A program made the translations under genes and the position numbers. From Fibrobacter sp. (GTDB taxonomy: Bacteria; Fibrobacterota; Chitinivibrionia; Chitinivibrionales; Chitinispirillaceae), in contig JAAZBG010000133.1 of the NCBI GenBank assembly GCA_012513915.1, forward strand, positions 1-64,000: a DNA stretch of 64,000 nucleotides, read 5' to 3'. The notes beneath the pieces are model-generated. The model was not told the DNA's origin, searched no databases, and saw only the letters and a program-made list of their open reading frames with translations. Shown piece by piece: positions 8,597 to 21,928 of this stretch. Position 1 is the stretch's first letter. Each line of letters begins with the position of its first letter.

Positions 8597-10120
8597 ATGA
8601 TTTGCAGGGTGATTCTATTTCTTGCATTATGTTGTGTGTCTGTATTTTCTCAGACTCAGTATTTACGCTATGCAATAATTGTAGGTCAGAATGACGGGGG
8701 GGCGTCTGTCGGTAAATTACAGTATGCTGAGCGTGATGCAAGAAGAGTTGCTGACGTACTTAAAAGTATAGGAGATTTTCCAAAAGAAAATGTTATTCTT
8801 CTGACTAATCCCGATAGTCTTGACATTCTGAACAGTATTGAAAGAACCAGTTTACTGGTACGCAATAAACAGGAGCAGGAAAAAGCGCTGTTCATGTTTT
8901 ATTACAGCGGTCATGCCGATATTAGTAGTTTGCTTTTAGGGAAAACACGTTTTTCACTCGAGAAAATCCAGAAAATGATAACGGCGTTTCCCGCTGCATT
9001 TAAAATTGGTGTTTTTGATGCATGTCAGAGCGGAGTGGTTACTGCGTTTAAAGGGGGAACCCGTGCTGAGCCATTTTATCTTCAGAACAATGCTGCGCTT
9101 GTAAAGGGTCAGGCGATTATTGCTTCCGCATCCGCAACTGAACGTGCCCAGGAGTCATCGACACTTAAAGGTTCGGTATTTACCTTTCACTGGATTAATG
9201 GGCTTAATGGCAGTGCTGATATTAGTGCAGATAATCAGGTCACCCTGAATGAAGCATATCAGTATGCATATCGTAAAACAATTGAGACAAGTGCCCTTGC
9301 GACCGGGGAGATTCAGCATCCGGTCTATCGTTTCAATATTGCAGGGCAGGGGGATATTGTTCTTACTAATCTTAACAAAAGTGAATCGGGAATATTTCTC
9401 GGTAACGATTGTGAGGGTAAGTTTCTGGTGTTAAGCGAGGACTTTCTTGAAGTCTATGCCGATTTTTACAAGGAAAAGTCCAGGGATATCTTCATTTCGC
9501 TGAATCATGGTAAATATACAATAGTCAATGCACGCGGCAGTGATGTCAGCACGCTTGCGCTGACGCTTAAACGTAAAATAATCACAAATGTAAAACAGAA
9601 CATGTTTATTGCAAATACATTAACCGAAAGCCGGATAAAAGGACATTCAGATTCACCGGTGAATTACTCAAAAACGATGCCCCGTGGTTATCGTGATTTG
9701 TCAATAGGTGGAGGGGCAGGGTTTGTTTTGTATCCGGACTTTGATACTGATAACTGGGATCGTGATGTTTTTCTGCAGATAACATCAGGGTATTCGCTAT
9801 TCAGCAATGTTTCGTTATATCTTGATGCTCAGGCCCTTTTATTTTGTAAATCAGGGCAGATACAGGCTGGCCTTGATTATGTAAAAAATAATGGTGTATC
9901 GGATCTGTTTATCGGTGCGGGTGGGGGACTGGAATATGCGTTTCATCAATTCAGCGATTTCAGTGATGCACTGAGCGGTACTGCTACGGTTCATGCAGGA
10001 TTCACGACAAGCATTGGTAAACATGCAAATTTACAGGTTAGAATCCCGTTTACGGCAGTATTTAAAGAAACGCATGATTATCGTCTGGGTGTGGATTTTT
10101 CGATATTTTTCCGGAAGTGA
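8597..10120 (+). CDS. Secreted caspase-like (peptidase C14) protein with C-terminal beta-barrel-like region
   Basis: Residues 1-18 are a signal peptide (cleavage near VFS-QT). Residues about 24-260 form a caspase/metacaspase p20-like domain: RYAIIVGQN, catalytic His106 in YYSGHAD and Cys143 in DACQSG. Residues about 365-507 show alternating hydrophobic strands with a GGGAGFVL start and aromatic-rich turns, like a small outer-membrane beta barrel ending in FSIFFRK. The protein is probably periplasmic or outer-membrane associated, with both catalytic residues intact. Its gene follows an ECF sigma/anti-sigma pair with a 7-nt gap, suggesting that the peptidase is part of, or controlled by, that signalling unit. 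Substrates are unknown. Confidence 0.8.
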   Translation: MICRVILFLALCCVSVFSQTQYLRYAIIVGQNDGGASVGKLQYAERDARRVADVLKSIGDFPKENVILLTNPDSLDILNSIERTSLLVRNKQEQEKALFMFYYSGHADISSLLLGKTRFSLEKIQKMITAFPAAFKIGVFDACQSGVVTAFKGGTRAEPFYLQNNAALVKGQAIIASASATERAQESSTLKGSVFTFHWINGLNGSADISADNQVTLNEAYQYAYRKTIETSALATGEIQHPVYRFNIAGQGDIVLTNLNKSESGIFLGNDCEGKFLVLSEDFLEVYADFYKEKSRDIFISLNHGKYTIVNARGSDVSTLALTLKRKIITNVKQNMFIANTLTESRIKGHSDSPVNYSKTMPRGYRDLSIGGGAGFVLYPDFDTDNWDRDVFLQITSGYSLFSNVSLYLDAQALLFCKSGQIQAGLDYVKNNGVSDLFIGAGGGLEYAFHQFSDFSDALSGTATVHAGFTTSIGKHANLQVRIPFTAVFKETHDYRLGVDFSIFFRK

Positions 10121-10474: not shown

Positions 10475-12283
10475 ATGGGTTCAACAACTACACATGCAAA
10501 ATTGCAGCAATGGGTTAAGGAAATGGCTGATCTCTGTCAGCCCGATTCAATATACTGGTGTGACGGATCTAAAGCTGAATATGATAAGTTTGTAAAAACT
10601 TTAATTGATTCCGGTTTAGCAATAAAACTCAATGAAAAAACACGTCCGGGATGCGTTCTGTTCAAATCAGATGCATCTGATGTTGCCCGCGTTGAAAATC
10701 GTACCTATATTGCAGCAAAGACACAGGATGCTGCTGGTCCAACAAACAACTGGATGGATCCTGCAATACTTAAAGAAGAGATGAAGGCTCTTTATAAGGG
10801 GTGTATGAAGGGTCGTACAATGTACGTTATTCCTTTCAGCATGGGCCCGATCGGTTCAAACATTGCAAAAATCGGTGTTGAACTTACAGACTCAGAATAT
10901 GTTGTTATCAATATGCACGTTATGACCCGCGTAGGTCAGAAGGTTCTTGATGTTCTCGGTGCAAATGGTGAATATGTTCCATGTATGCATTCTGTTGGAA
11001 AACCACTCGCTGCCGGTGAAAAAGACAATGGCAAATGGCCATGTGCTCCAATCGAGAAGAAGTATATCTCTCATTTCCCTGAAGAACGTACAATCTGGTC
11101 ATACGGCTCTGGATACGGCGGGAACGCACTTCTTGGCAAGAAATGTCTTGCACTCCGTATTGCATCAGTTATCGCTCGTGATGAGGGCTGGCTTGCAGAA
11201 CATATGCTTATTCTTGGTATCACCAATCCAAAGGGTGAGAAAAAGTATGTTGCAGCTGCTTTCCCAAGCGCATGCGGTAAAACAAACCTCGCAATGCTAA
11301 TCCCTACGATTCCTGGCTGGAAAGTAGAAACTATCGGTGATGATATCGCCTGGATGAAATTCGGTGCTGATGGCCGTCTCTATGCTATCAATCCTGAAGC
11401 TGGTTTCTTTGGCGTTGCTCCAGGTACATCAATGGATTCAAACCCGAACGCAATGCACTCAATCGAGAAAAATACCATTTTCACAAACGTTGCTCTTACA
11501 GCAGACAAAGATGTGTGGTGGGAGGGTATCGGTTATAATGCTCCAGGTAAACTGATTGACTGGAACGGAAACGAGTGGGAAGAGGGCAAGTCTGACAAAC
11601 CTGCAGCACATCCAAATGCACGTTTTACAGCTCCTGCAAATCAGTGTCCGGCTATTGCACCTGAGTGGGAAAATCCTGCAGGTGTTCCAATCAGTGCAAT
11701 TCTTTTTGGTGGTCGCCGCCCAAGCACAGTTCCTCTCGTACATCAGGCAACAAGCTGGAACCATGGTGTGTTTTTAGGATCAATCGTTGGATCAGAAGTA
11801 ACGGCAGCAGCTCTTGATGTCAAGGCAGGAACAGTTCGTCGTGACCCGTTTGCGATGCTTCCATTCTGCGGATATCACATGGGTGATTACTTTGCACACT
11901 GGATCAAAATCGGTCAGAAATCCACTGCTGATAAACTTCCAAAGATCTTCTTTGTTAACTGGTTCCGCAAAACAAAAGAGGGAAAGTGGTTGTGGCCTGG
12001 ATACGGAGAAAACAGCCGTGTTCTGAAGTGGGTTTTCGAACGTGCAAGCGGCGAAGGCAAAGCTCAGGAATCTGCTATCGGTTATCTTCCAACAGAAGAT
12101 GCAATCGATACAGCAGGTCTCAATGTATCTGCTGAAGACATGAAAGAGCTTCTTAAGATCAACAAAGCAGAGTGGCTTACTGAAATTGAAACAATTAAAG
12201 AACATTATGCTAAGTTTGGTAACAGAATACCAAAAGAACTCAATGATGAGTTGGCAGCACTTGTTGCCCGTTTGAATAAGTAA
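10475..12283 (+). CDS. pckG: Phosphoenolpyruvate carboxykinase (GTP)
   Basis: A 602-residue protein of the GTP-dependent PEPCK family. Key elements: the kinase P-loop FPSACGKTN, the metal-binding/active-site stretch GDDIAWMKF, the PEP-site R-loop region near residues 80-90 ([17 protein letters not shown]) and NWFRK near the C-terminus. It interconverts oxaloacetate + GTP with PEP + CO2 + GDP in the cytoplasm. In succinate-producing anaerobes it often runs in the PEP-carboxylating direction. ATG 10475 follows GAAAGG. The gene is closed by a strong hairpin, so it is a separate unit from accD-accA downstream. Confidence 0.95.
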
Positions 12284-12295
12284 ATCAGAAAATGT

Positions 12296-12330
12296 AAAGA
12301 GACGCAGACCCGAAAGTTTGCGTCTCTTTT
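12296..12330 (+). terminator. Rho-independent terminator after pckG
   Basis: A perfect 11-bp stem, AAAGAGACGCA (12296-12306) and TGCGTCTCTTT (12319-12329), with a 12-nt loop ends in a T-run 13 nt after the pckG stop. Confidence 0.88.
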
Positions 12331-12361: not shown

Positions 12362-13198
12362 ATGCCCTGGTTTATTAAAACCAAAGCTGAACGTGAAGCA
12401 CAGAAAAAGTTGTCCGAAGAGATCTGGACCAAGTGTCAGTCCTGCGGCGCTCACGTTTTCAAACAGGATTTTACAAACAATAGCAACGTCTGTCCCAAGT
12501 GTAACTGGCATGGAAAGCTGACAGCCTACGAGCGTATCGGAATCACACTCGACAGTGGTTCGTTCAAGGAACTCAACGAGACTATCCGTCCGTCAGATCC
12601 ACTAAATTTTGTTGATGGAAAAGGTTCTTATAAAGAACATATTGAACGCGTAACAAAGAAGACCGGGCTTAATGAATCAGTGGTTACCGGCCTTGGTAAG
12701 ATTAACGAAAAAGATGTTGTTATTGCGGTTATGGATTTCAGATTTCTTGGTGGAAGTCTTGGAGGCGGCACCGGAGAGAAAATTCTTCAGGCTGCAAACT
12801 ATGCTTATGATCACAAACTTCCGTATATAATTTTTTCTGCATCAGGTGGTGCCCGCATGCATGAGGGTATTCTGTCGCTTATGCAGATGGCTAAGACATG
12901 TGCCGGAATTGCTCGTCTTGACGAAAAACAACTGCCGTTTATCTCTGTTCTAACAGATCCGACAACCGGTGGTGTAAGTGCATCATACGCAATGGTTGGG
13001 GATATAAATATTGCTGAACCGGGCGCTCTTGTCGGTTTTGCAGGTCGTCGTGTGATTGAAAATACAATTAAACAGAAACTGCCGGATTCATTCCAGACAG
13101 CAGAGTTTGTGCTGGAGCATGGATTTCTGGATATGGTTGTCCATCGCAGGGATTTGAAAAACACCCTCGCGGGGATCCTTTCATACTATAACAGATAG
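12362..13198 (+). CDS. accD: Acetyl-CoA carboxylase carboxyltransferase subunit beta
   Basis: A 278-residue protein with an N-terminal four-cysteine zinc ribbon (CQSC...CPKC, residues about 24-46) and the crotonase-like carboxyltransferase core (FLGGSLGGGTGEKI, FSASGGARMHEGILSLMQM, LTDPTTGGVSASYAM). With AccA it transfers CO2 from biotin to acetyl-CoA to make malonyl-CoA. The start follows GGAGG. accA follows after 9 bp and a biotin-carrier fusion after that, so this looks like one operon. No accC (biotin carboxylase) lies in the window. Confidence 0.95.
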   Translation: MPWFIKTKAEREAQKKLSEEIWTKCQSCGAHVFKQDFTNNSNVCPKCNWHGKLTAYERIGITLDSGSFKELNETIRPSDPLNFVDGKGSYKEHIERVTKKTGLNESVVTGLGKINEKDVVIAVMDFRFLGGSLGGGTGEKILQAANYAYDHKLPYIIFSASGGARMHEGILSLMQMAKTCAGIARLDEKQLPFISVLTDPTTGGVSASYAMVGDINIAEPGALVGFAGRRVIENTIKQKLPDSFQTAEFVLEHGFLDMVVHRRDLKNTLAGILSYYNR

Positions 13199-13207
13199 GG
13201 ATGTGAC

Positions 13208-14158
13208 ATGAGTGAATTCGACTTTGAAAAACCGGTTGCTGAAATGGAAAAGGCGATCGATAAACTTAAAAATATAAATGGTGAAAACAAAACAGATTTT
13301 AATGCTCAGCTTACGGATCTGGAAGCAAAGCTTTACGAACGTAAGAAAGAGATTTATGATAACCTGACCCCCTGGCAGACTGTTCAGGTGGCCCGTCACG
13401 CGAAGCGTCCGGTGTTGTTCGATTATATCAGGTATATCTTTACTGACTTTATTGAACTTCATGGTGACAGACATTTTGGTGATGATCATGCAATGGTTGG
13501 TGGATTCGCAACACTTGGCAAAGAGAAAGTGATGCTTATCGGCCACAGCAAGGGTAAAAATCTCGAAGAGAATATAAAGCGTAATTTCGGTCAGGCTAAA
13601 CCGGAAGGATATCGCAAGGCACTTCGCCTGATGAGACTTGCGGAGAAATATAATTTGCCGATTGTGACCTTTTGTGATACACAGGGCGCATTTCCGGGGC
13701 TTGACGCAGAGGAGCGGGGCCAGCATGAGGCGATCGCACGTAACCTTACCGAAATGGCAAAGATTAAAGTGCCGATCATTACGGTTGTTACCGGTGAAGG
13801 CGGCAGTGGCGGTGCACTTGGTATTGCAGTTGGTGATTCTGTGTGTATGTTGTCATATGCAGTCTATTCTGTAATCTCCCCTGAGGGCTGTGCGGGTATT
13901 CTCTGGCGTGATGCGTCATTTTCGCCTCAGGCTGCAGAAGCGCTCAAGATCACTGCAAAATCACTGCTTGAGCTTGGTGTAATTGATGAAATCATTCAGG
14001 AGCCGGTTGGTGGTGCTCATACAGATCCTCAGAAGACCGCTGAAGAGATCAGGACTGTTGTTCTTAAACATATCAAGAAACATAGCGGTCAGTCAACCTC
14101 AAAACTTCTATCAAAGCGTTTTGACAAATTCGCAGCGATGGGTAAATTTACAAAATAA
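13208..14158 (+). CDS. accA: Acetyl-CoA carboxylase carboxyltransferase subunit alpha
   Basis: A 316-residue AccA: N-terminal helical region with TPWQTVQVARHAKRP, then the core FCDTQGAFPGLDAEERGQ, VVTGEGGSGGALGIAVGD and SVISPEGCAGILW, all standard AccA signatures. It partners AccD in the alpha2beta2 carboxyltransferase. It sits 9 bp after accD and 17 bp before the carboxyltransferase-biotin carrier gene. Separate accA and accD genes side by side are normal in this type of operon. Confidence 0.95.
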   Translation: MSEFDFEKPVAEMEKAIDKLKNINGENKTDFNAQLTDLEAKLYERKKEIYDNLTPWQTVQVARHAKRPVLFDYIRYIFTDFIELHGDRHFGDDHAMVGGFATLGKEKVMLIGHSKGKNLEENIKRNFGQAKPEGYRKALRLMRLAEKYNLPIVTFCDTQGAFPGLDAEERGQHEAIARNLTEMAKIKVPIITVVTGEGGSGGALGIAVGDSVCMLSYAVYSVISPEGCAGILWRDASFSPQAAEALKITAKSLLELGVIDEIIQEPVGGAHTDPQKTAEEIRTVVLKHIKKHSGQSTSKLLSKRFDKFAAMGKFTK

Positions 14159-14175: not shown

Positions 14176-16170
14176 ATGACAACAAAAACAAAAACTGAAG
14201 AGAAGATCCCGCTGAGGATTACCGATACTACGTTGCGTGATGCGCATCAGTCGCTCTGGGCTACCCGCATGCGTACTGAAGATATAATGCGTATTGTTGA
14301 TGTAATTGACAACGCGGGATATTATTCGCTTGAATGCTGGGGTGGGGCAACATTTGATGTTTGTCTGCGTTTCCTTCGCGAAAATCCATGGGAACGTCTC
14401 CGGATGATCAAGTCAAAAGCAAAGAATACACCACTTCAGATGCTGCTTCGCGGGCAGAATCTTGTCGGGTACAAAAACTACGCTGATGATGTTGTTGACA
14501 GATTCGTAGCACTTTCTTGTCAGAATGGTATTGATATTTTCAGGGTGTTTGATGCGCTCAATGATACACGTAACCTTGAAGCTGCGATTAAAGCTGTTAA
14601 AAAACACGGCGGACATGCACAGGGTACACTCTGCTATACAATTTCACCGGTACATACAATCGAGAAATTTGTTAAGCATGCTAAAGATCAGGTCGCTCTT
14701 GGTGTTGACTCAATCGTAATCAAGGATATGGCCGGTATCCTCTCTCCGGTTCATGCAGAAAAACTTGTTGGTGCGCTTGTAAAGGATGTTGGTGTGCCGA
14801 TTCAGGTTCACTCACATGCGTCAAGCGGTATGGCAATGACTATGTATACAGCAGCGGCTTATGCTGGTGCTGGTGCAATCGATTGTGCGATTTCGTCAAT
14901 GGCTGGTACATCATCACAACCACCGGTCGAAACAATGGTTGCGATTTTTGCAGAATCAAAATTTGATACGGGACTTGACCTTGATGCTCTCGGGAAAATT
15001 GCAAAGTACTTTGATGAGCTTGCACCGAAACGTCGTCAGAATAGTTCGTTTCAGCCATATATCGATCCCGGAATTCTTGTGCATCAGATCCCCGGCGGTA
15101 TGATTTCCAATTTCAGGTCACAGCTTGATCAGCAGAAGGCTCTTGACAAGTTGCCACTTGTACTTGATGAAGTATCACGCGTTCGCGAAGATCTCGGATA
15201 TCCTCCGCTTGTTACACCGACAAGCCAGATCGTTGGTACACAGGCAGTAATGAATATTATTGCGGGCGAACGGTATAAGATGGTTCCAAACGAAGTTAAA
15301 GAGTACTGTCGCGGAATGTACGGTCGTTCACCGGCTCCTATTAAACCAGAATTTATTAAGAAAATCCTTGGTGATGAGAAACCGATTGATTATCGTCCGG
15401 CTGATAAGATTGCGCCAATGCTTCCGAAAGCAACGGATGATGTTGATCCTAAGTTCATAGAGCATGAAGAAGACATCGTTTCCTATGTAATGCTTCCTGA
15501 GCCTGCGCTTGAGTATTTTAAGTACCGTGCGACTCCGGTTGAGCAGCGTCCGGAAACACCAGCCGATCTTGAACTCAAGAAGCAGGAAAAGAAGGATGTT
15601 GCACCAGCTCCGGTACCGGCTGCTCCAGCAGTTGATCAGGATGCAACTCCAGCACAGACACCTGTTGCAGTTCCCGGTAATTTTCAGAGTGTCGCTGATG
15701 AGCTTCTTGGCAAGATCGAGGGGCTTACGCTTGATGAACTGATCTTCAGGAAGGGTGATTTTACCATTGCAGTGCGTCCGTCAGGTGTTCCAGCTGTGGC
15801 AGCATCACATCGTACAATACATGTCTCAACACCTTCGGCTCAACCAGTTGCAGCACCAGCACCGGCAAAGGCAGCCGCTCCTGTGGCACCAGCTGCAGCA
15901 CCGGTAGTGCCTGTTGCAGAAGTAAAGCCTGGAAAAACAATCAACGCACCTATTGGAGGAAAGTTCTACACATCTGCAGGACCAGGGAAACCGAAGTTCT
16001 GTAAAGAAGGTGATGTGGTTGATACAGGCGGGAAAGTATGTATCGTTGAAGCAATGAAGCTTTTTAATGAGATTGCAACTCCGACAAGATGCAAAATTGT
16101 AAAGTTCCTTGTTCCTGATGGTACAACAGTCGAGAAGGATCAGCCGCTTGTTTCTATTGAAGAAATTTAA
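14176..16170 (+). CDS. Oxaloacetate decarboxylase alpha/PycB-type carboxyltransferase fused to an AccB-type biotin carrier
   Basis: Residues about 12-450 are a pyruvate/oxaloacetate carboxyltransferase of the OadA/PycB/transcarboxylase-5S family: DTTLRDAHQSLWATRMRTED, FDALND, IKDMAGILSP, VHSHASSGMA. After a Pro/Ala-rich linker comes ELLGKIEGLTLDELIFRKGD (about 505-530), which resembles the N-terminal segment of AccB. After a second linker comes a biotinyl domain with the AccB-style PIGGKFYTSAGPGKPKF thumb and EAMKL, biotin on Lys628. Ordinary OadA/PycB tails lack both the AccB N-segment and the FY..... thumb. Placed directly behind accD-accA, it may act as the biotin carrier of acetyl-CoA carboxylase as well. 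Whether it decarboxylates oxaloacetate or carboxylates pyruvate is not decided by sequence. Confidence 0.88.
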   Translation: MTTKTKTEEKIPLRITDTTLRDAHQSLWATRMRTEDIMRIVDVIDNAGYYSLECWGGATFDVCLRFLRENPWERLRMIKSKAKNTPLQMLLRGQNLVGYKNYADDVVDRFVALSCQNGIDIFRVFDALNDTRNLEAAIKAVKKHGGHAQGTLCYTISPVHTIEKFVKHAKDQVALGVDSIVIKDMAGILSPVHAEKLVGALVKDVGVPIQVHSHASSGMAMTMYTAAAYAGAGAIDCAISSMAGTSSQPPVETMVAIFAESKFDTGLDLDALGKIAKYFDELAPKRRQNSSFQPYIDPGILVHQIPGGMISNFRSQLDQQKALDKLPLVLDEVSRVREDLGYPPLVTPTSQIVGTQAVMNIIAGERYKMVPNEVKEYCRGMYGRSPAPIKPEFIKKILGDEKPIDYRPADKIAPMLPKATDDVDPKFIEHEEDIVSYVMLPEPALEYFKYRATPVEQRPETPADLELKKQEKKDVAPAPVPAAPAVDQDATPAQTPVAVPGNFQSVADELLGKIEGLTLDELIFRKGDFTIAVRPSGVPAVAASHRTIHVSTPSAQPVAAPAPAKAAAPVAPAAAPVVPVAEVKPGKTINAPIGGKFYTSAGPGKPKFCKEGDVVDTGGKVCIVEAMKLFNEIATPTRCKIVKFLVPDGTTVEKDQPLVSIEEI

Positions 16171-16195: not shown

Positions 16196-16228
16196 AAAGC
16201 TCCGGACGTAATTGTTCGGGGCTTTTTT
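16196..16228 (+). terminator. Rho-independent terminator of the acc operon
   Basis: AAAGCTCCGGAC and GTTCGGGGCTTT pair with two G-U wobbles around a 6-nt loop and run into TTTTTT, 25 nt after the stop of the carboxyltransferase fusion. Confidence 0.8.
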
Positions 16229-20566: not shown

Positions 20567-21928
20567 ATGGCCTTTCAGCATACGATTGGTAAAAAAGCTT
20601 CACTTAAAGGTGTCGGACTCCACACAGGTGTCCCTACTACGGTTACGATTAATCCTGCGCCGGAAAACTCCGGTATTCGTTTTGTCAGGACTGATCTGCC
20701 AAATAAACCGGAAATCAAAGCCGATATTGACAATGTAGTGGATTTGTCGAGAGGAACCTGCATCGGTAAAGATGATGCCCGCGTTTACACTGTAGAGCAT
20801 ATCATGTCTGCTTTTGCAGGACTTAAAATTGATAACTGTCTTGTTGAGGTTGAAGCTCAGGAAATCCCATTGATGGATGGTAGTGCCATGCCGTATGTGG
20901 AATTGATTCAGAGTGCAGGAATTGTAGAGCAGAGTGCCGAAAGAGAATATCTGACAATAGAGCAGCCTATCATGTATGTCAAGGGTGATGTAGCACTGGG
21001 AGTTTTTCCTCTTGACTACTTCAGGTTGACTCTTGAAGTCGATTATAATTATCCTGCACTTGGCGCGCAGTACACAACGATGTTCTCTCTTGATGATTAC
21101 ATCAGTGACTTCGCACCGTCACGTACATTCTGTTTCCTATCCGAGATCGAAAAGCTTCGGGAACAGGGCCTTATTAAAGGCGGATCGCTTGACAGTGCAC
21201 TTGTTGTTCAGGATATCGAATTGACTAATGAACATGTTGACTACATCCGCCGTCTGTTTAACTGGCAGGGGCCTGTCGAGGGTGGAAAAAATGGTTTCCT
21301 GAATAATACGGAATTACGTTTTTATAACGAACCGTGTCGTCACAAAGCACTTGATCTTGTTGGTGACCTATACCTTTTAGGAAAGCCGCTGAATGCACAT
21401 ATCATCGGTGCCCGTACGGGGCATGCTGCAAATATTGCTGTTGGAAAACAGATTCGTGATTTAATCAATAAGACTCTTAAGAAAAAAGAAGGCACTATTA
21501 TCCAGCTTGGCTATGAGGAAATTCTTAAAACGATTCCACATAGGCACCCATTTTTGTTTGTTGACAAAGTACTTGAAATAGTTCCCGGAAAAAGAATCGT
21601 AGCTCAGAAGAATGTTTCATTTAATGATAATTTTTTTGAGGGACACTTTCCCGGAAATCCTGTTATGCCCGGGGTGCTTCAGATTGAAGCGCTTGCACAG
21701 GCTGCCACCATAATGGGATTATTCGGAAAAAGTGAAGAGGAGCGAAAAGTCTTATTCCTTGGTATTGATAGTGCGAGATTCCGCGGAATTGTTCGCCCCG
21801 GTGATACGCTTCGTCTTGAGGTGGTTATGACACAATTCAGACGTGGTACCGGAAAATTTGAAGGTAAGGCATATGTGGGCGATAAGCTTGTTTGTGAAGC
21901 AAATATGCTTGCTATGCTTGGTGTTTAA
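20567..21928 (+). CDS. lpxC: LpxC-FabZ fusion: UDP-3-O-acyl-GlcNAc deacetylase / 3-hydroxyacyl-ACP dehydratase
   Basis: Residues 1-300 are LpxC (KGVGLHTG; zinc ligands in VEHIMSAFAGL and HKALDLVGDL; HIIGARTGHAANI). Residues about 305-453 are FabZ (IPHRHPFLFVD; FFEGHFPGNPVMPGVLQIEALAQ). LpxC commits UDP-acyl-GlcNAc to lipid A; FabZ dehydrates hydroxyacyl-ACP toward fatty acids, so the two activities compete for the same hydroxyacyl pool. Such fusions are known mainly in Bacteroidetes and related FCB lineages. All main catalytic residues are visible. It lies between lpxD and lpxA. Confidence 0.95.
   Translation: MAFQHTIGKKASLKGVGLHTGVPTTVTINPAPENSGIRFVRTDLPNKPEIKADIDNVVDLSRGTCIGKDDARVYTVEHIMSAFAGLKIDNCLVEVEAQEIPLMDGSAMPYVELIQSAGIVEQSAEREYLTIEQPIMYVKGDVALGVFPLDYFRLTLEVDYNYPALGAQYTTMFSLDDYISDFAPSRTFCFLSEIEKLREQGLIKGGSLDSALVVQDIELTNEHVDYIRRLFNWQGPVEGGKNGFLNNTELRFYNEPCRHKALDLVGDLYLLGKPLNAHIIGARTGHAANIAVGKQIRDLINKTLKKKEGTIIQLGYEEILKTIPHRHPFLFVDKVLEIVPGKRIVAQKNVSFNDNFFEGHFPGNPVMPGVLQIEALAQAATIMGLFGKSEEERKVLFLGIDSARFRGIVRPGDTLRLEVVMTQFRRGTGKFEGKAYVGDKLVCEANMLAMLGV

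Follow-up and report, generated by a model that had tools for sequence, protein, structure and literature searches.

The window, a stretch of 64,000 nucleotides from a Fibrobacter sp. genome, carries three adjacent genes that together encode parts of an acetyl-CoA carboxylase (ACC) and of a pyruvate/oxaloacetate carboxyltransferase, with a gene for PEP carboxykinase upstream. The features of the locus are as follows:

10475-12283, + strand: pckG, GTP-dependent PEP carboxykinase, a possible oxaloacetate source (968 bits)
12296-12329, + strand: terminator-like hairpin between pckG and accD, 14-bp stem (consensus match only)
12362-13198, + strand: accD, acetyl-CoA carboxyltransferase beta subunit with Zn ribbon (TIGR00515, 377 bits, above the cut-off; PF17848)
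13208-14158, + strand: accA, acetyl-CoA carboxyltransferase alpha subunit (PRK05724, 474 bits, above the cut-off)
14176-16170, + strand: fusion of a PycB/OadA-type carboxyltransferase with an AccB-type biotin carrier, 664 aa (open reading frame and profile matches)
14212-15003, + strand: carboxyltransferase (CT) TIM barrel of the fusion, HMGL-like, aa 13-276 (domain match and metal-site residues)
15073-15552, + strand: PYC_OADA conserved carboxylase domain, aa 300-459 (174 bits)
15688-15789, + strand: AccB-like N-terminal segment, about aa 505-538 (TIGR00531 match from model position 7; conservation)
15931-16167, + strand: AccB-type biotinyl domain, aa 586-664, with the Biotin_lipoyl match at 588-661 (profile and structure alignment) and the thumb at about aa 597-608
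16057-16059, + strand: codon of the biotinyl Lys628, in the motif EAMKLFNE
16196-16225, + strand: terminator-like hairpin 3' of the fusion gene, 13-bp stem (consensus match only)

The genes accD, accA and the fusion gene are consecutive, and because the gaps between them are short (9 and 17 bp) and hairpins lie before accD and after the fusion gene, the three seem to form a single transcription unit apart from pckG. A terminator scan returned about as many sites as were found in shuffled sequences, with the two hairpins that flank the unit having by far the longest stems. It had been proposed that pckG could supply oxaloacetate to the operon; the gene does lie directly upstream, but as the 14-bp stem stands between it and accD, and as this adjacency was found in only about 11 of the loci examined from the order (the source locus included), the link is no more than suggestive. 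Elsewhere in the window lie a protein that bears a caspase domain (Peptidase_C14) and is extended at its C-terminus (8597-10120) and an LpxC-FabZ fusion (20567-21928), the latter being a type of fusion known in some other phyla.

The CT part of the fusion scored 756 bits against NF006761, above the cut-off, and 696 bits against TIGR01108, under the cut-off of that model, and its nearest solved relatives were Vibrio cholerae OadA, a PycB and the transcarboxylase 5S subunit. The role of the Asp/Lys/His/His metal site is established for OadA, 5S and PC. In the fusion, D22, K183, H212 and H214 correspond to D17, K178 (carbamylated), H207 and H209 of V. cholerae OadA, and the protein combines this site with the HMGL-like CT and PYC_OADA domains that characterize PycB/OadA carboxyltransferases. 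An alignment of 40 sequences from the order revealed the Asp and both His residues in all 40 and the Lys in 39; with the exception of one duplicate copy, the metal ligands and the biotinyl Lys are invariant across the order. An AlphaFold model built with nine sequences was mediocre overall (mean pLDDT of 65), with a value of about 80 for the biotinyl domain, and none of the conclusions draws on it.

The earlier note had described this protein as an OadA/PycB carboxyltransferase joined to an AccB-type carrier within an accD-accA operon, and had pointed to an AccB-like N-segment, an AccB-style thumb and Lys628 in its tail, all of which our comparisons confirm. The best match of the tail (aa 489-664) was the BCCP model TIGR00531, at 101.5 bits with an E value of 6e-29, the match running from position 7 to position 155 of the 156 in the profile. 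This score is under the curated cut-off of 115.2, which several other members of the order exceed, and compares with 49 bits for the PycB model PRK09282 and 26.7 bits for the OadA model TIGR01108. The closest solved tail was that of E. coli BCCP (4hr7; E 5e-15), in an alignment that spans the N-segment, the linker and the biotinyl domain and that pairs the thumb FYTSAGPGKPKF of the fusion with FYRTPSPDAKAF of the E. coli protein; among solved structures, a PycB (5ks8) gave only 12 bits for its tail. Across the order, majority conservation is 55% in the N-segment versus 30-35% in the linkers flanking it. As an internal control, a second OadA of the source genome scored 23 bits against the same BCCP model; with just one OadA tail of the ordinary kind in it, a tree of BCCP tails is a weak control. 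Judged by these profile and structure matches, the tail is of the AccB type and not an OadA biotinyl domain. A correction to the earlier note is that PycB proteins with AccB-type tails also occur elsewhere, as described below.

The source genome spans 5.5 Mb and is 99.97% complete with 8% contamination. The lack of a separate accB, which had been noted for the operon, extends to this whole genome, as the only carrier that resembled the full TIGR00531 model in profile searches was the fusion itself, and a survey for other accB, accC or pycA genes found none. PF02785, the biotin carboxylase profile, had no match in the source genome in a search that matches 13 of 14 control genomes, and a whole-AccC query, sensitive enough to detect CarB at about 25% identity, returned CarB-like matches only. 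The Carboxyl_trans proteins of the genome are AccD and AccA alone, which makes them its sole acyl-CoA carboxyltransferase. Three further proteins with biotinyl or lipoyl domains were considered as hidden AccB candidates and ruled out, being a lipoyl-FabH fusion (contig C165), an efflux adaptor (C141) and the second OadA, which has an ordinary biotinyl tail and is encoded beside OadB (OadB/MadB-like), biotin ligase and malic enzyme (C268). The genome thus encodes AccA and AccD of a heteromeric ACC with neither AccC nor a separate AccB, and a PycB-type protein with no PycA biotin carboxylase partner, which 8 of the 40 order members do have. It holds every part of a transcarboxylase, namely a keto-acid CT, an acyl-CoA CT and a biotin carrier, with no biotin carboxylase found.

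As the genome offers a single carrier and a single acyl-CoA carboxyltransferase but no biotin carboxylase, that carrier would be chargeable only by a carboxyl donor. The CT fused to it is of the oxaloacetate/pyruvate kind and has its site intact, so that oxaloacetate would be the natural donor. Following the chemistry of the family, the PycB/OadA domain would take the carboxyl group of oxaloacetate, free pyruvate and carboxylate the biotin on K628, after which the carboxylated AccB-type tail would dock at AccA/AccD and pass the carboxyl group to acetyl-CoA, producing malonyl-CoA for FabD. The net reaction would be oxaloacetate + acetyl-CoA -> pyruvate + malonyl-CoA, with neither ATP nor bicarbonate used at this step. 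Oxaloacetate and malonyl-CoA have similar decarboxylation energies and such a transfer should therefore be feasible. FabD was found in 39 of 40 genomes of the order and its retention implies that malonyl-CoA is needed and consumed. From the domains, the conserved catalytic and biotinyl residues, the single carrier, the gene order, the lack of a recognisable biotin carboxylase and the presence of FabD, we consider it probable that the accD-accA-fusion unit is a transcarboxylase-type, ATP-independent acetyl-CoA carboxylase, which would have made AccC dispensable, since oxaloacetate can charge the carrier that is fused to the CT. Both proposals of the earlier note, that one carrier may serve AccA/AccD and the pyruvate/oxaloacetate CT and that carboxyl groups may move from oxaloacetate to acetyl-CoA as in a transcarboxylase, gain support at the level of sequence: of the two outcomes that the note had named as refuting, an accB-accC pair elsewhere in the genome and a tail scoring as a normal OadA biotinyl domain, neither was observed, and the gene layout and the lack of AccC are shared by most of the order.

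Two other functions for the fusion were weighed against these data. Since enzymes of the OadA/PycB kind usually work on a carrier of their own, the fusion could be anaplerotic or decarboxylating, placed near accDA by chance, with malonyl-CoA coming from another source. We find this scarcely credible, as AccA/AccD would be left carrierless in a genome with no other BCCP or acyl-CoA carboxyltransferase and with FabD kept. The reversal of Na+-coupled decarboxylase pumps was reported decades ago, and since the source genome encodes an OadB/MadB-like protein, the biotin of the fusion might instead be carboxylated or decarboxylated at OadB, the fusion being either an alternative alpha subunit of the pump or a carrier charged from CO2 by a pump running backwards. 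This too appears very unlikely: OadB adjoins its own OadA on another contig, no second OadA match was obtained in several near-complete members of the order, G024 and G016 among them, and the fusion keeps company with accDA, with neither OadB nor OadG co-encoded. A role for the fusion as a component of the Na+ pump itself was rejected in view of the separate OadB-OadA pair.

The transcarboxylase interpretation was next set against the distribution of these genes in a search of 168 genomes across the phylum, which judging by how large its groups are and what they contain is probably Fibrobacterota, and in which the order is represented by 40 species, mostly as draft assemblies. A full-length fusion was present in 38 of the 40 genomes (57-73% identity); the two that lack it are 86-88% complete and are missing accD as well. 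The accD-accA-fusion arrangement was contiguous in nearly all of the order loci read, the fusion lying on a contig other than that of accDA in G028 and G029, and two genomes (G038 and G013) carry two fusion copies each. AccC was absent from 32 of the 40 genomes and present in eight (G004-G006 and G033-G037), in which the whole-AccC query detected it at 52-100% identity; in the rest of the order the query matched nothing but CarB-like proteins or further ATP-grasp proteins, with identities of about 19-36%. The eight holders still have the fusion as their sole or best AccB. By comparison, families f10-f14 of the phylum carry accC and, as a gene of its own, a normal accB whose open frames span about 156-210 aa.

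The most serious alternative is that the fusion serves as a carrier shared by ACC and pyruvate carboxylase and receives its carboxyl group from an ATP-dependent biotin carboxylase that escaped detection, whether through an assembly gap or because the enzyme is divergent or non-homologous. Eight members of the order have a true AccC that is presumably used in this way, and PycB-AccB proteins are encoded beside accC in two genomes from outside the order (L013 and L016). Among order genomes that are at least 90% complete, however, AccC is missing from 20 of 26, including G024 (100% complete) and the source genome, and the probability that incompleteness explains all 20 absences is about 1e-31 if gaps are independent; gaps in draft genomes are thereby ruled out as the cause. 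PF02785 and the full AccC query yielded nothing beyond CarB-like ATP-grasp proteins, and contamination brings genes in but never takes them out. A missed biotin carboxylase is thus an unlikely explanation in our judgement. Points that do count against a transcarboxylase include the draft state of most of the genomes, the PycB-AccB fusions that work beside an AccC elsewhere, the accDA-side copy in G038, which has lost K183 and T347, the separation of the fusion from accDA in G028 and G029, and the supply of the donor, which appears to differ among members of the order, pckG being non-adjacent in many.

The two G038 copies (G038:C157 and G038:C873) differ in their active sites: in the copy adjacent to accDA the CT site carries K183R and is altered at T347/T349, and the other copy is intact. 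These copies have perhaps split into a carrier and a catalyst.

In a tree of AccD, AccA and CT sequences the AccC holders fell at three separate places, which demands at least three changes, while the AccC sequences of these holders are compatible with a single clade (AU p 0.42). Repeated loss from an AccC-bearing ancestor is therefore the simpler account of the sequences, relative to lateral gains of AccC. The AccC-keeping minority can probably also run the fusion as a pyruvate carboxylase. PycB proteins with an AccB-type tail are also found beyond the order, those of L013 and L016 having accC immediately 3' of the fusion, unlike the source locus, and 42-46% overall identity to the source protein. 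L016, an Eggerthellales MAG, carries in addition a separate accB-accC-accDA-fabH cluster that encodes a canonical ACC, and a Methylococcales MAG (L024) combines PycB-AccB with a separate accB-accC elsewhere in its genome. An AccB-type tail on its own is thereby ruled out as proof of sharing with ACC; because accC adjoins the L016 fusion and a separate accB-accC-accDA set is present, that fusion, and likewise the one in L013, is by its gene context probably an ordinary two-subunit pyruvate carboxylase. As PycB-AccB fusions elsewhere work beside AccC, the fusion probably did not originate for transcarboxylation. The accD-accA-fusion gene order of the source recurs in three Bacteroidales-named MAGs (L009, L010 and L059) and in L011. 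In L009 and L010 the sole biotin carboxylase detected adjoins mmdA and looks like the partner of a propionyl-CoA carboxylase, L059 has two biotin carboxylases that both lie near mmdA-like genes, and none was found in L011. Taken together, we favour a scheme in which the whole order would transfer carboxyl groups from oxaloacetate to acetyl-CoA through PycB-AccB and AccA/AccD independently of ATP, biotin carboxylase having been lost several times after the fusion arose, with possible parallels in related anaerobes; we hold this wider scheme to be reasonably likely.

The unit would then be a transcarboxylase built of bacterial ACC parts, on a principle known from two other systems. The methylmalonyl-CoA:pyruvate transcarboxylase of Propionibacterium (12S/5S/1.3S; 1rqb, 1dcz) shares the 5S-type CT (421 bits) and a biotin that shuttles between a keto-acid CT and an acyl-CoA CT without a biotin carboxylase, as predicted here; in the present case, however, the acyl-CoA side is AccA/AccD and not 12S, the carrier is of the AccB type and fused to the CT, and the reaction is predicted to serve fatty acids, through malonyl-CoA, and not propionate metabolism. 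The enzyme of Giardia intestinalis is reportedly predicted to move carboxyl groups between oxaloacetate and acyl-CoA. In it, too, a CoA carboxyltransferase of the ACC type and a carboxyltransferase of the pyruvate-carboxylase type are combined with a biotin carrier, but in one eukaryotic polypeptide, whereas separate bacterial AccA and AccD accompany a PycB-AccB fusion here, with relatives both with and without AccC. Two later papers (PMC3199775 and PMC8700996) cite Jordan et al. 2003 for the Giardia transcarboxylase, whose single polypeptide is given as 1338 aa (PMC8700996). Compared with bacterial heteromeric ACC (AccABCD), the source has canonical AccA and AccD and a carrier with the AccB N-segment and thumb, but AccC is lacking and AccB is fused to PycB/OadA. 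Relative to the alpha subunit of the Na+-translocating oxaloacetate decarboxylase (OadA; 2nx9), the CT domain (487 bits) and metal ligands are alike, while the tail is not of the OadA type, OadB is not co-encoded and the genome has a separate OadA/OadB pair. In the literature searched, which leaves most subscription papers outside its coverage, we found no report of a bacterial AccA/AccD transcarboxylase. Lombard and Moreira (PMC3199775) described Thermotogales, Spirochaetes and most Actinobacteria as having no ACC-type biotin carboxylase, and in those cases AccA/AccD are missing as well. A genome study of Chitinispirillum alkaliphilum, a member of the class Chitinispirillia (Fibrobacteres) that is probably related to the source order, lists the fatty acids C14:0, C16:0 and ai15:0 and an oxaloacetate decarboxylase, with no pyruvate carboxylase or PEPCK reported there (PMC4814513); fatty acids made without a reported pyruvate carboxylase or PEPCK were counted in favour of the transcarboxylase reading.

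If the proposal is correct, bacterial ACC can run as a transcarboxylase, tying lipid synthesis to oxaloacetate in place of ATP and bicarbonate and saving energy-poor fermenters one ATP per malonyl-CoA, and fatty acid synthesis in genomes without biotin carboxylase would be explained. ATP-dependent biotin carboxylation by AccC is regarded as the step from which fatty acid synthesis starts in nearly all bacteria, and it is an antibacterial target. The eight AccC-keeping relatives would represent natural intermediates that make the evolutionary step directly testable, and the accD-accA-fusion unit could provide an ATP-free malonyl-CoA module for engineering.

Other gene sets were observed in the wider survey. 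Fibrobacter-like genera of the phylum (g29 and g30; e.g. G144, with loci L191 and L192, and G101) lack AccD proper and, in most cases, an ACC-type biotin carboxylase as well. Their genomes encode a carboxyltransferase of the MmdA-like kind along with a small BCCP, OadB and an OadA-like protein devoid of a biotinyl domain, possibly a second, independent AccC-free way to malonyl-CoA. In family f8, G040 (L193 and L194) has accD-accA, no biotin carboxylase and, elsewhere, a 738-aa frame with OadA-like and biotinyl matches, which constitutes a third variant. Thermotoga maritima was the sole control of the 14 without PF02785 and has FabD, OadB and a Carboxyl_trans protein. Among related anaerobes that lack an ACC-type biotin carboxylase, parallel versions may exist in the Fibrobacter-like genera, family f8 and some Bacteroidales-named MAGs, and possibly in Thermotoga.

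Two observations concern the fate of acyl groups in the source genome. A pair of frames on contig C165 (locus L181, 4431-5753 and 5746-7770, both - strand) encodes the lipoyl-FabH fusion, in which aa 12-81 are the lipoyl domain and aa 120-440 a FabH-type ketoacyl-ACP synthase III, and directly next to it a 2-oxoacid dehydrogenase E1 of 674 aa with fused alpha and beta parts. The arrangement suggests that branched acyl groups pass from the lipoyl domain straight onto FabH and would fit ai15:0 fatty acids. On contigs C279 and C310, two long open frames (2340 and 1912 aa) have acyltransferase (FabD-like) matches and, from these matches, probably encode polyketide synthases, further consumers of malonyl-CoA.
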